Assembly: GCF_023910625.1 (NCBI RefSeq) | Contig: NZ_JAAVVW010000003.1 | Location: 682,001 to 746,000 of the forward strand | Reading direction: 5' to 3' | DNA length: 64,000 bases | Origin: Limnohabitans sp. | Lineage (GTDB): Bacteria > Pseudomonadota > Gammaproteobacteria > Burkholderiales > Burkholderiaceae_C | In this document: positions 38,235 through 57,041 of the stretch, piece by piece | How positions within the stretch are numbered: position 1 is the first letter of the stretch | Layout: every line of letters starts with the position of its first letter | Program-made: the position numbers and the translations under genes | The notes under the pieces: generated by a model | Databases searched by the model: none | Seen by the model: the letters and a program-made list of their open reading frames with translations, nothing else | What the model was told of the DNA's origin: nothing

Positions 38235-38886
38235 ATCGGCATAGGGGGGGCTGCGATTTTCGCAGTCGCCCCTGACACACCACCCGGCATGCGGGTCCGC
38301 ACCGGGCGGTTCGAGAGCTTGAGGTCATGACAGCCTTGGCACTCCCAACCCATCAAAGTACGCAATCGTCAGCACCGTCTTGAGCATTCGGTCACTGTTT
38401 CGCCACCAGCGACGGCTGTTCACAGCCACTTGCCGCGCCACGTTTTCCTTTGCCCCCAGCGCCTTCAGTTCTCGGTAGATCGCCAGGGCCTCTTCCTATG
38501 CTTGAGCTGGATCGACCTCAACCGATGAGGCTGCCACTCGTCTAGCTCTCGTTGTTTGTCAACAAAGTTGTCCGCTTTTCTAAACGGCTACCGCCACGCT
38601 TTCTGGCGACCTCAGATGCTCCCGCGGCGGGTTGAGCCACGGGGGTGTACAGAGTTTTGTGTAAACGGGGCTGCGATCAGTCCTTGGGCATCCTGCCTGC
38701 AAACCGGTGGACAGTGCCAAGAAGCTCTCGCCGGAGTCAATGACCGTGACGCCGACCAAAGTAATTGTCGTCAAACATATCGTCAAACAGCTCGGTCACC
38801 CTCACGCAGTTGCCCTTCTCTTTGCTCACTGTGACCAGCTCGCAGCAGGACTTGCACCCGCAGGTATGCGCCCATGCTGGGCTCAC
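38235..38886 (-). mobile_element. Decayed group II intron remnant
   Basis: The outer parts match the intron at 54876-56528. 38235-38556 corresponds to its 3' end, including domain V (about 38277-38312, with an identical core), domain VI and the last codons of the maturase. 38794-38886 corresponds to its 5' end, including the G-T-G start (GTGAG instead of GTGCG). Nearly all of the maturase gene is gone, and about 237 bp of unrelated sequence sits in the middle, with GTGTACAGAGTTTTGTG that recalls IS256-type ends (weak). The 5' end lies four bases after the U-tract of a terminator on the same strand. Confidence 0.85.
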
Positions 38887-53332: not shown

Positions 53333-54751
53333 TCAATAATCATCGCTCAGACCCGACGCGAGGCTCTCAAAACGAGTCAGGTTCTTCAGGAAAGTGAGGC
53401 GGACCGTGCCAGTCGGACCATTACGCTGCTTGCCGATGATGATTTCAGCCACCCCGGGATCTTTGGAATCCTTGTTGTAGTAGTCGTCGCGGTAAATGAA
53501 CATGATGATGTCAGCGTCCTGCTCGATGGCACCAGACTCACGCAAGTCGCTCATCATGGGGCGTTTGTCTGTCCGTTGCTCGACACTGCGGTTCAATTGC
53601 GACAAGGCAATCACCGGGCACTGCAGCTCTTTGGCCAGCATTTTCAGACCCCGCGAAATCTCACCCAATTCGGTCGCGCGGTTGTCACCGACCGAGTTCC
53701 CAGAGCCACTCATGAGCTGCAAATAATCCACCACAATCAAACCCAGCTTGCCACACTGGCGAGCCAGTCGCCTGGCATTTGCGCGCAACTCGGACGGTGT
53801 TAGTCCAGGTGTTTCGTCGATGTGCAAAGACACCGTACGCAGTTTTTCAATGGCTTCGGTCAACCGTGGCCACTCGTCATCGCTGAGTTTGCCTGTACGC
53901 AAATGACCCTGGTCGATGCGGCCAATCGAGCCGACCACACGCACGGCCAACTGGGATGCGCCCATTTCCATGGAAAAAACCGCCACCGGCAGTCCTTCGT
54001 TTAAGGCCACATGCTCGGCAATGTTGATCGCAAAAGCCGTTTTCCCCATCGAAGGACGTGCAGCCAAAACGACCATGTCTCCCGGCTGGAGACCGGAAGT
54101 CATCCGATCCAGGTCATAAAAGCCGGTGGGCACACCCGTGATGTCATTGGGGTTGTCAGCCATCTCCTGCACGCGGTCAAGCAGCTCGACCACCAGCGTG
54201 TCCATCGACTGAAAGCCCTGCTTCATGCGCGAGCCCTCTTCACCAATGTTGAAGATTTTTTGCTCGGCTTCATCCAGGATGCGGTCAATGGCCTTGCCCT
54301 GAGGGTTGAACGCGTTGGTAGCAATTTCGTCGCTGGCCGAGACCAGCTTGCGCAAGATAGCGCGCTCCCGAACAATCTCGGCATAGCGGCGTATGTTGCT
54401 GGCGCTGGGCACGTATTGGGCCAAAGAATTCAGATACGCTAACCCCCCCATTTGCTCCGCCTTGCCCTGGTTTTGCAATTGCTCGCTGACAGTGATCACG
54501 TCAGCAGGTTTTGAGGCATTCACCAGCGCACCGATTGCCGCGTAAATCAACTGGTGTTCATGACGGTAAAAGTCTGTGTAGACCAGCAAATCCCCCACCC
54601 TGTCCCATGCCCCGTTGTCCAACAACAACCCTCCTAGAACGCTGGATTCGGCCTCAATGGAATGTGGTGGCACGCGCAGATTGGCCACTTGGCTGTCGCG
54701 AGACAGATCAGCAGAAAAAGGAATCAAAGCAGAATCAATTGCAGCGGACAT
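53333..54751 (-). CDS. dnaB: Replicative DNA helicase DnaB
   Basis: 472-residue hexameric helicase that opens the replication fork. The N-terminal domain (about 25-130, VPPHSIEAESSVLGGLLLDN) binds primase. The RecA-like C-terminal domain has Walker A ARPSMGKTAFAINIA (about 222), Walker B LIVVDYLQLM (about 335) and the ALSQLNRSVEQRTDKRP region. No intein is present. The ATG at 54751 is chosen over an in-frame TTG two codons earlier. It follows rplI on the same strand, with the group II intron between them. Confidence 0.96.
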   Translation of the reverse strand: MSAAIDSALIPFSADLSRDSQVANLRVPPHSIEAESSVLGGLLLDNGAWDRVGDLLVYTDFYRHEHQLIYAAIGALVNASKPADVITVSEQLQNQGKAEQMGGLAYLNSLAQYVPSASNIRRYAEIVRERAILRKLVSASDEIATNAFNPQGKAIDRILDEAEQKIFNIGEEGSRMKQGFQSMDTLVVELLDRVQEMADNPNDITGVPTGFYDLDRMTSGLQPGDMVVLAARPSMGKTAFAINIAEHVALNEGLPVAVFSMEMGASQLAVRVVGSIGRIDQGHLRTGKLSDDEWPRLTEAIEKLRTVSLHIDETPGLTPSELRANARRLARQCGKLGLIVVDYLQLMSGSGNSVGDNRATELGEISRGLKMLAKELQCPVIALSQLNRSVEQRTDKRPMMSDLRESGAIEQDADIIMFIYRDDYYNKDSKDPGVAEIIIGKQRNGPTGTVRLTFLKNLTRFESLASGLSDDY

Positions 54752-54882
54752 GGGCAAACCAACTTAAAAGGCAATGTTAGTCGCGAAAGGTCGGTCGTTG
54801 CTGGACAAACCTGTGGATAAGCTTTGTAAATCCGGTGAGAAACACGTTACAACTGGACCATTGGCTTAACTGACCATCGGCA

Positions 54883-54952
54883 TAGGGGGCCTCCATTGTA
54901 GGAGGCACCCCTGCCACACCACCCGGCATGCGGGTCCGCACCGGGCGGTTCG
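54883..54952 (-). ncRNA. Group II intron domains V and VI
   Basis: Domain V (about 54918-54952): on the minus strand ACCGCCCGG pairs with CCGGGTGGT around an inner stem and loop; its sequence is identical over about 50 bases in the copy at 38 kb. Domain VI (about 54883-54911): GGGGTGCCTCC pairs with GGAGGCCCCC, leaving unpaired A residues near the 3' strand as branch-point candidates. Domain V is the catalytic heart of the ribozyme, and both elements look intact here. Confidence 0.85.
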
Positions 54953-54963
54953 AGAGCTTGAGG

Positions 54964-56130
54964 TCAGGACAGCCCTGGCACCCCCAGCCGGTCAAAGTAC
55001 GCAATGGTCAGTACGCGCTTAATGGCTCCGTCACTGTTGCGCCACCACCGATGGCAGTTACCCGCCACTTGGTTGGCCACATCTTTCGATGCCCCCAGCG
55101 CCTTGAGTTCCCGGTAGATCGCCTTCGGCCTCTTCCAATGCTTGAGCTGAATGGCCCTCAGCCGATGGCGCAGCCACTCGTCCAGCTCTCGCCAGACCCT
55201 GGGCGTTTGCGCCATCCCGAAGTACGCCTTCCAGCCCAGCAGGTAGGGCCGCAGTTTCTCCACCACCTGCGCCATGCTGCACCCGCCCGAGCGGCACGTG
55301 AGTTGCCGGATGCGAGCCTTGAAGTTGTCCAGTGCCTTGTAGGCCACCGCACATTTGACTTCTTTGCCCTTGGCCATCCACAACGCATACCCCAGGAACT
55401 TGCGCCCAAGGGCGCTGGCCACTGCACTCTTGGCTTCGTTGATCTGAAGCTTCAAGCCCGTGTACAGCTTCCTGAGGTAGCCCATCACCCTCTCGCCCGC
55501 CTGCTTGCTGCCCACGTAGACGTTGCAATCGTCGGCGTAGCGCGCGAAGCAGTAGCTGCGCGCCTCCAACGCCTTGCCCACTTCGTCTAGCAGCACGTTG
55601 GCCAACAGCGGACTGAGCGGTCCGCCTTGCGGCGTGCCCAGATGGCGATCGACCACCACCCCGCCATCCATGATCCCGGCGTTCAAGTAAGCCCGAATCA
55701 GCCGGATGACTCCAGCGTCGTCGATGCGCCTTTTGAGCCTGTCGATCAGGATGTCGTGGTTGACCCGGTCAAAGAACTTGGCCAGGTCCACGTCCACCAC
55801 CACGCGTTTGCCCGATTGGACGTACGCCCGTGCGGCCTTGACCGCATCGTGTGCACGCCTGCCCGGTCGAAACCCGTGGCTGTGGTCGCTGAAGGTGGGG
55901 TCGATCAGCGGTTGCAGCACCTGTAAAAGGGCCTGCAGGTTCTGTCTCGTCAGCGCCGCCTCCAGCAGACCACCTGTGCCTGCCAGCTGCTTTGCCGACC
56001 CTGTATCCGGGTGTTCATGCAACGTACCTCGGGTTTCGTCGCTGGCAGTGTCTGGCCCGGCTTCACCGTGCCGCCTTCCTGCCCGCCCGGATCGCTCCGG
56101 CATCTGACGCATGACCTTGTGGCTTTGCAT
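54964..56130 (-). CDS. Group II intron maturase, internally deleted
   Basis: 388-residue intron-encoded reverse transcriptase/maturase. Visible are RT motifs from VLQPLIDPTFSDHSHGFRPG (about residue 71), VVDVDLAKFFDRVNHD, GTPQGGPLSPLLANVLLD and the catalytic YADD (198-201), then the maturase X-domain and a C-terminal HRWWRNSDGA region; no HNH endonuclease is present. The segment between LLEAALTRQNLQ and LLQVLQPL normally holds about 80 residues (RT-0, RT-1 and the IPKPDGG region); here it is joined directly (about 55925-55940), an in-frame deletion. The protein is therefore probably unable to reverse transcribe. Splicing help might remain (inference). Confidence 0.9.
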   Translation of the reverse strand: MQSHKVMRQMPERSGRAGRRHGEAGPDTASDETRGTLHEHPDTGSAKQLAGTGGLLEAALTRQNLQALLQVLQPLIDPTFSDHSHGFRPGRRAHDAVKAARAYVQSGKRVVVDVDLAKFFDRVNHDILIDRLKRRIDDAGVIRLIRAYLNAGIMDGGVVVDRHLGTPQGGPLSPLLANVLLDEVGKALEARSYCFARYADDCNVYVGSKQAGERVMGYLRKLYTGLKLQINEAKSAVASALGRKFLGYALWMAKGKEVKCAVAYKALDNFKARIRQLTCRSGGCSMAQVVEKLRPYLLGWKAYFGMAQTPRVWRELDEWLRHRLRAIQLKHWKRPKAIYRELKALGASKDVANQVAGNCHRWWRNSDGAIKRVLTIAYFDRLGVPGLS

Positions 56131-56531
56131 GTCCTCGGTTACTCACTCTCGTTCGGTCCTTCGCTCTTGCCTTGTGGCCTCAGCGGCCCCGGCTCCAACT
56201 ACTACGACCTCTGCTGACTTCTCGCTCCGGCAGTGCCGTCTTCCTTTCGGAAACAAGGCGAGATCTCCCCGGGTAAGAACGCACTCCTTCGCTGCACAAC
56301 CGCTGCATCTACGCCACTTCGCCTTGATCACGAGAGCTTCGCGGTAAACGGTCCGCTCGCCCTGCTTGGCAGCGCCTTCTATGCAGTTCTTGTTCATCGG
56401 CTCGCAGTTTCGCTCCACGCTTCCTTCCCACACTCGGTCACCCTCATGCAGTTGCGCTTCGCTTCGTTCGCTGTGATCAACTTACGGGAGGACTTGCACC
56501 TCCAGGAGTGCGCCCGTGCCGGGCGCACCAT

Positions 56532-56566
56532 AAAAAAGCCGCCAGGCTCAACGCCGGGCGGCTTTT
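56532..56566 (-). terminator. Intrinsic terminator of rplI, intron target
   Basis: On the minus strand GCCGCC-C-GGC pairs with GCC-T-GGCGGC around a TTGA-containing loop and is followed by TTTTTT-ATG; the intron begins directly after. It ends the rpsF-priB-rpsR-rplI operon. Confidence 0.92.
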
Positions 56567-56588
56567 CAGTGGGACGGCAGGATAATGA

Positions 56589-57041
56589 TCAGGCAGACTC
56601 ACCGTAAACAGACACGGTCACGTCAACCACCACATCGGTATGCAAGGCGACTGAGACAGTTGAATCGCTAACAACCTTGATCGGACCATTGGGCATGCGA
56701 ATCTGAGATTTAAGGAGCTTGAAGCCTTGCTTGTTCAACTCTTCAGAGATGTCGTGGTTGGTCACCGAGCCGAACAAACGACCATCGACCCCGGCTTTTT
56801 GCGACAACTTGACAACCAGACCATTGAGCTTCTCGCCCTGAGCTTGCGCATCGGCCAACTTTGCTGCAGCGACCTTTTCGAGTTCAACGCGGCGAGCTTC
56901 GAATTCAGCCTTGTTAGCTTCAGTAGCGCGACGTGCACGACCTTGAGGGATCAGGAAATTGCGCGCATAACCGTCTTTGACTTTGACGATATCGCCCAGA
57001 TTACCCAGGTTCACAACCTTTTCGAGCAGAATGATTTGCAT
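56589..57041 (-). CDS. rplI: 50S ribosomal protein L9
   Basis: 150-residue two-domain protein of the large subunit. [28 protein letters not shown] (in two parts) is the N-terminal rRNA-binding domain. A long central helix (about 40-75, rich in Ala, Glu, Lys) leads to the C-terminal domain with [13 protein letters not shown]. Last gene of the rpsF operon; the terminator at 56532-56566 follows. Confidence 0.98.

Follow-up and report, generated by a model that had tools for sequence, protein, structure and literature searches.

The stretch of DNA analysed here (the window: 64,000 nt of a Limnohabitans sp. genome, assembly GCF_023910625.1, contig NZ_JAAVVW010000003.1, positions 682,001 to 746,000) contains a group II intron between rplI and dnaB. 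The reverse transcriptase (RT) encoded by this intron lacks RT0/RT1, and three further copies with the same deletion are present in the genome.

Location and boundaries of the intron

A preliminary description of this DNA had placed a group II intron immediately after the rplI terminator, and this was confirmed by ribozyme domains in Rfam, by the intron boundaries, and by the flanking hairpin. On the minus strand, rplI is followed by the terminator hairpin (56567-56533), by TTTTTTATG, and then by the intron start GTGCGCCC at 56528, such that the hairpin and the intron are 4 nt apart. The terminator hairpin folds, in a segment of 52 nt, at -30.6 kcal/mol (z -5.3), and none of 200 shuffled sequences reached so low an energy. 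When the flanks of related copies were compared, 31 distinct 5′ flanks stopped at the aligned first base of the intron, and 25 of 26 distinct 3′ flanks ended with TATGCCGAT (the remaining one with TATGTCGAT), with divergence thereafter. This comparison sets the intron at 54876-56528, a length of 1653 nt. The span originally proposed, 54876-56566, was therefore correct at 54876, whereas its other end took in the terminator. The coordinates of all features are collected in Table 1.

Table 1. Features of the rplI-dnaB locus, intron copies carrying the deletion, and copies of the ORF-less form. Positions refer to the window unless prefixed by one of our labels for contigs (C), loci (L), or genomes (G).
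Feature	Position	Strand	Basis
rplI (ribosomal protein L9)	56589..57041	-	TIGR00158
rplI intrinsic terminator hairpin, insertion target of the intron	56533..56567	-	fold; hairpin and T-run behind rplI in the relatives examined
Group II intron, assigned to class C, 1653 nt, GTGCG...TATGCCGAT	54876..56528	-	flanks of related copies, Rfam, empty site
Ribozyme match RF02001 (group-II-D1D4-3)	56277..56447	-	Rfam, 107.1 bits, E 6e-21
Ribozyme match RF01998 (group-II-D1D4-1)	56156..56259	-	Rfam, 44.7 bits
Intron-encoded protein, 388 aa from ATG; RT without RT0/RT1, plus domain X	54964..56130	-	TIGR04416, RVT_1, GIIM
Deletion junction: single GCAGG left of a direct repeat	55932..55936	-	alignment with full-length copies
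YADD catalytic motif, kept	55528..55539	-	protein alignment
Domain X / thumb (GIIM), kept	55105..55329	-	PF08388, residues 268-342
Domain V hairpin with 2-nt bulge	54918..54949	-	fold
Domain VI hairpin	54885..54911	-	fold
TTATCCACA box, presumably DnaA-box-like	54812..54820	-	conserved before dnaB in relatives
dnaB (replicative helicase)	53333..54751	-	TIGR00665
Deletion copy (window)	C3:736876-738528		profile 80-353
Deletion copy	C3:210510-212164		profile 80-353
Deletion copy	C2:499893-501548		profile 80-353
Deletion copy	C3:508440-510114		profile 80-353
ORF-less form	L077:605-1277; L032; L078; L076; G012:C42:298459-298654

The ribozyme was represented by the matches to RF02001 and RF01998 and by the hairpins of domains V and VI (54949-54885). 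The Rfam domain V model, RF00029, gave no match in the window and none at the gathering score in the four deletion copies. Among 68 distinct 3′ ends of related loci, the lower stem of domain V was completely paired in 60, and one of its pairs varied as C-G, G-C, and U-A, which supports the helix. In the fold of the window copy, this lower stem carries CGC with a G-U pair, which may be the catalytic triad of class C.

The site was then compared among relatives. Sixty genomes were searched with rplI as the query, 50 matched (49 and the source genome), and loci were taken from 29 relatives, none of which had an intron behind rplI. dnaB was placed downstream of rplI in 21 of these loci and was not found within the locus in the other 8. 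In the 21, rplI and dnaB were 170-196 nt apart, compared with 184 nt in the window with the intron removed. An empty rplI-dnaB site in related genomes had been anticipated in the preliminary description, and this was borne out; occupied sites in relatives, which it had named as evidence against its account, were looked for in the same 29 loci and none was seen. These comparisons indicate that the Limnohabitans lineage studied gained a class C group II intron at the site behind the rplI terminator.

Assignment to class C

Both the assignment to class C and the absence of an endonuclease domain, as put forward earlier, stood up to analysis, the former through RT similarity, the RNA domains, and the terminator site. 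In Pfam searches (E up to 0.001), the intron protein matched RVT_1 and GIIM alone, and no endonuclease domain was found. Its best match among solved structures was GsI-IIC RT (304 bits), followed by the group II intron RT 7uim_D (228 bits), 6me0_C (88 bits), and LtrA (83 bits); of these, we take 7uim_D to be IIC, 6me0_C IIB, and LtrA IIA. Foldseek likewise returned GsI-IIC RT as the top matches. The assignment to class C, for which the RT was judged by similarity to solved structures, is thus supported by the RT, the RNA, and the site together.

Class C introns insert at or after intrinsic terminator motifs, as one section of PMC4424553 states with reference to Robart et al. 2007. By one fixed rule devised for this analysis, a hairpin with a T-run was scored in 27 of the 31 distinct 5′ flanks, compared with 148 of 5000 random window positions (3%). 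The P value for this enrichment is 1.5e-36 when flanks are taken as independent, although a few of the 31 are not; L081 and L082, for instance, seem to represent a single site present in two genomes. Of the four flanks failing the rule, two have the same hairpin in front, which lacks a T-run, a third adjoins another intron piece, and the fourth follows a hairpin that likewise lacks a T-run. Both the intron and the site it occupies are ordinary for class C.

The encoded RT has lost RT0/RT1 through a 225-bp deletion

The preliminary description implied an ordinary, self-sufficient element, and this was contradicted by the encoded protein. The match of the window ORF to TIGR04416 covers positions 80-353 of 353 and reaches 274.8 bits (cut-off, 300), such that the ORF has no counterpart to positions 1-79 of the RT/maturase profile; RVT_1 matches residues 23-204. 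Alignment with full-length copies revealed that these hold 225 bp between two GCAGG repeats, which the window copy lacks with its frame kept. The 75 missing residues start behind TRQNL and run up to the first Q of LIQQ; when 19 full-length relatives were aligned with the window protein, 40 columns of this segment were conserved at ≥90%.

Structure models of modest quality were obtained both for a full-length relative (mean pLDDT 72.5, pTM 0.66) and for the window protein (mean pLDDT 67.4, pTM 0.55). In the former, the deleted residues (70-144) take up most of the first N-terminal helix (66-78), the second helix (90-110), two strands (119-124 and 130-135), and the beginning of the helix that follows, a part that we read from the model as the NTE with the RT0 loop plus the RT1 fingers strands before RT2. 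The latter retains the remaining strands and helices, and the palm, YADD, and domain X are still present in the truncated RT. In GsI-IIC RT, according to part of PMC12337344, the RT0 loop is a lid over the active site, RT1 to RT7 form the fingers and palm, and primer extension does not need the RT0 loop. Loss of RT activity is very likely in the window protein, more on account of the missing RT1 with its fingers strands than of the missing RT0; judged from its sequence, the RT of the window intron is almost certainly dead, and the retained YADD and domain X leave room for residual function.

A complete RT, from RT0 to RT7, is the mark of an autonomous group II retroelement. Given that 75 residues with RT0/RT1 are missing here, the window copy is probably not autonomous. 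It also falls outside the class of ORF-less introns, which have no frame for an intron-encoded protein (IEP), since a 388-aa frame remains. The simplest alternative, that both the class C intron and its RT are ordinary, fits everything seen of the site and RNA, but it would require the 75-residue loss to be an assembly error repeated at four sites, and we consider it extremely improbable.

Copies in the source genome

The source genome (3.17 Mb, 3 contigs) gave seven matches to the RT profile, four with the deletion and three without. All four deletion copies have an open frame of 392 aa from stop to stop and exact intron ends behind hairpins, and each end-to-end complete copy of the intron in the genome carries the deletion (n=4). 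One follows rplI, one lies behind dksA and ahead of mraZ, one is beside argG, and one is behind a hairpin next to an IS91-like frame (site gene names other than rplI and dnaB come from reading of the frames). The dksA-mraZ site was occupied in none of 29 relatives' loci, which were taken from 80 other genomes matched; the distance between the dksA and mraZ hits was 291-539 nt in these relatives, compared with 294 nt in the source genome without the intron.

Each of the three matches without the deletion departs from a complete intron in another way. At C3:2307k, the RT profile is complete, but the last residues are exchanged for others and the ribozyme lacks its 3′ end, and at C3:1369k the RT C-terminus and domain V are lost. 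C3:2316k (L030:10187-13389) is a more distant intron, with 66% DNA identity over a 425-nt part of the RT, and is probably also of class C. Its RT frame is intact, and an element that reads as IS256-like lies between the RT stop and domain V; the RT of this copy is a possible helper.

Two further observations concern the targets of these copies. An anti-hemB small RNA (sRNA) family, RF02837, was matched at L030:10098-10185 (64.4 bits) and ends one base before the C3:2316k intron, so that the sRNA terminator may be the target. The copies at C3:508k (L029), which adjoins the IS91-like frame by our reading, and C3:2307k (L030) are situated behind nearly the same hairpin of ~36 nt without a T-run, perhaps the end of another element serving as a target.

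The deletion in other genomes

Outside the source genome, the deletion junction did not turn up in the genus (89 genomes searched, many of them incomplete, with at most 9 candidates considered per genome). The segment was present at full length in 10 copies from 8 of these 89 genomes, where copy counts of relatives are lower bounds with three candidates scored per genome. A 120-base junction query was contiguous in the source genome alone among 399 genomes of the family (two candidates scored per genome). Moreover, the junction pattern had no match in genome_contigs or viral_contigs, collections from which records near the source genome may be absent; as a control, the same pattern gave 1 match in the window and matched 15 of 245 loci, all from the source genome.

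Candidates for similar deletions elsewhere were also inspected. In another genus (G427), one match spanned the junction but was rejected, as the RT there was of full length. Among at least 585 loci of RT relatives in named genomes, 80 were examined, of which 63 were clean and of full length and 17 were flagged. From the flagged loci, L195 and L202 were rejected when their translations were read (N-terminus diverged but present), as were L212 (fused behind another frame) and L213 (ribozyme lost too); the frames of L201 and L207 start at a contig edge, and the other 11 had a single stop, a gap of 10-15 residues, or a 5′ segment present twice. In one genome of the genus (G056, L075), pieces of the intron's 5′ end lie to either side of a full-length copy, as if this copy had inserted at that hairpin of another one.

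A shorter, ORF-less form of the intron with a single deletion junction was detected in five genomes, namely G021, G073, G012, G003, and the source genome (C3:1917k); the copies of G003 and of the source genome are cut on the 3′ side. The 5′ flanks could be seen in G021, G003, G073, and the source genome, and the form lies behind a different hairpin in each of these four. Horizontal spread of this form together with host DNA is a less likely explanation. The most natural reading would be its mobilisation by RTs of other copies, and its occurrence in five genomes suggests trans use within the intron family.

Mosaic structure of the copies

Positions 593-1290 of the intron are 98.3-99.7% identical among six copies of the source genome. 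Around this core, two types (82-84% alike) can be told apart at positions 1-230 and again two (83-86% alike) at positions 1291-1653, and at positions 331-560 the window copy is 69-70% identical to the other five. In its 5′ part, the window copy shares 97-99% identity with introns from other species (G016, G015), whereas in its core the identity is 98.9-99.7% to the siblings and 92.7% to the best relative. The alignment contained no single-base allele that set the four deletion copies as a group apart from the full-length ones. Given this mosaic, and given that no private allele is shared, the deletion most likely moved between backbones by recombination. Gene conversion of ~700 bp between group II introns is on record, in the part of PMC3522654 that deals with it, and template switching in reverse transcription would leave the same pattern. 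In the C2 copy (L028), domain V has a C-C mismatch at its seventh pair, where the siblings have C-G or G-C; the C3:508k copy has the compensated G-C form. This mismatch looks like a recombination breakpoint inside domain V, and because of it the ribozyme of the C2 copy may be weakened.

One alternative is mobilisation in trans alone, by which the deletion intron would have moved as a non-autonomous element with the RT of an intact sibling. This would agree with four copies having exact ends behind hairpins, with rplI and dksA-mraZ sites that are empty in all relatives' loci taken, and with an ORF-less form in five genomes and behind different hairpins in four of them. Copies with RT0/RT1 and a damaged ribozyme are possible helpers, and Thermosynechococcus elongatus provides a precedent, as described in part of PMC2882425. 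However, the four copies share a core but combine it with 5′, middle, and 3′ parts of differing type, for which recombination is needed as well, and trans mobilisation taken alone seems to us somewhat improbable. A further idea, also somewhat improbable, is that a non-autonomous class C lineage, having lost the RT fingers and RT0 but not the palm, YADD, or domain X, was multiplied via the RTs of ribozyme-broken copies; if true, RT and ribozyme would be naturally split between different copies of one genome.

Selection on the truncated protein

Another alternative is that the truncated protein is a selected, RT-dead maturase resembling MatK and retained for its help in splicing, for which MatK and O.i.I2 serve as precedents in the part of PMC4424553 that treats them. 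All four frames are open, and the palm, YADD, and domain X are present, but changes private to one deletion copy speak against this reading, with 6 nonsynonymous against 0 synonymous (among the former a serine-to-leucine change, as seen in the copy alignment). In five open-frame relatives, 30 nonsynonymous and 62 synonymous private changes were counted (one-sided Fisher P 0.002 versus the deletion copies), and it should be considered that these five were picked for their open frames, with G008b (12:8), G008c (7:5), G012 (11:17), and G015 (0:6) left out and G056 outside the private-change alignment and so outside the test. Among own copies without the deletion, nonsynonymous to synonymous changes were 3:1 at C3:2307k and 0:0 at C3:1369k; given the former ratio, youth may explain part of the nonsynonymous excess. 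A neutral expectation of ~0.75 gives six nonsynonymous changes out of six with a probability of 0.18, and with such small counts the data are evidence against constraint as strong as that of the relatives, and nothing beyond. Raw pN/pS between deletion copies was 0.07-0.22 (three of six pairs computed), and is low because most of the differences predate the deletion. The absence of the NTE/RT0, which is part of the RNA-binding surface, is a further point against a retained maturase. As the deletion event looks too young, the open frames carry little meaning, and we regard selection for a maturase as unlikely.

A proposed course of events

We infer a single origin, a route of spread, and a helper from the deletion, the four copies, and the mosaic seen among them. 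Our main reading, to which we assign a probability of roughly 0.75, is that of a class C intron with a dead RT whose deletion arose once and was spread by recombination, probably along with trans mobilisation. One slippage event between the GCAGG repeats would have removed 225 bp in frame, and the deletion, having arisen once, would then have reached all four end-to-end complete copies. This spread would be recent and would have proceeded via recombination, either as gene conversion tracts of ~0.7 kb or through template switching during reverse transcription. The RT of a sibling copy would probably mobilise the deletion introns in trans, and their splicing, if any, would rest on the ribozyme, on an RT/maturase supplied as a helper by copies that lack the deletion, or on whatever maturase function the truncated protein retains. 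As far as can be judged from the copies themselves, gene conversion, with or without trans mobilisation, is the most likely means by which the deletion spread, and each deletion copy is probably either dependent on neighbouring copies or was overwritten by them.

Comparison with known introns

With class C introns in general, the window intron shares the terminator target, the lack of an endonuclease domain, and an RT closest to GsI-IIC RT; it differs from them in having an RT without RT0/RT1. According to section 9 of a 2015 review (PMC4424553), O.i.I2 of Oceanobacillus iheyensis is the sole known bacterial intron with a degenerate IEP, and as portrayed there it resembles the window intron in having an open IEP frame from which RT motifs have been lost. 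However, O.i.I2 is of class ML, has no YADD, and is inserted in radC, whereas the window intron is of class C, retains YADD but not RT0/RT1, is intergenic, and occurs in four copies. The ORF-less introns of T. elongatus likewise carry one deletion in several copies beside RT-bearing relatives, in the account given in part of PMC2882425; most of their ORF is gone and their trans mobility has been demonstrated by experiment, whereas the window intron has a 388-aa frame and its trans mobility is putative. In Hamiltonella defensa, a conversion tract of like length between intron copies (c-Ha.de.I1, ~700 bp) is described in part of PMC3522654; the tract in Limnohabitans would differ in carrying an RT-disabling deletion. 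MatK and other organellar maturases have lost RT motifs and kept domain X, as has the window protein (PMC4424553, in the section concerned). MatK, however, binds multiple chloroplast introns, whereas the Limnohabitans deletion looks recent and has no sign of selection.

An RT0/RT1 deletion shared by four class C copies appears to be new. In a search of titles and abstract openings, in which few subscription papers were covered, no class C intron family with a deletion of this kind came up, and the same search yielded no literature on group II introns in Limnohabitans. A single genome holds four deletion copies together with RT0/RT1-bearing siblings whose ribozymes are damaged, and the genus adds full-length relatives and an ORF-less cousin. 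This provides a compact natural setting for testing how a group II intron decays from an autonomous to a dependent state, and whether gene conversion spreads a disabling allele through a family of copies.

The region upstream of dnaB and a second intron remnant

The preliminary description also considered that the insertion may affect dnaB expression, a suggestion that found no support, as the conserved stretch before dnaB is intact 3′ of the intron. The gap between the 3′ end of the intron and the dnaB ATG (54751) is 124 nt. The TTATCCACA box, which we take to be DnaA-box-like, precedes dnaB in 19 of the 21 relatives with dnaB downstream, and is intact between the intron and dnaB in the window; its conservation could reflect DnaA control of dnaB in Limnohabitans. 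Because the insertion lies 5′ of this conserved stretch and behind a terminator, an effect on dnaB was not adopted. A simple scan of 54700-56650 gave no sigma-70-like promoter. Terminator-like sites in the same interval numbered 2, compared with a shuffle mean of 1.8, in a scan that caught the rplI hairpin only in part.

Elsewhere in the window, a remnant of a second class C intron was noted at 38235-38886 on the minus strand, behind a terminator-like hairpin 3′ of an acetolactate-synthase-like gene. In this remnant, ~100 nt of the 5′ part and ~320 nt of the 3′ part are left around unrelated DNA.
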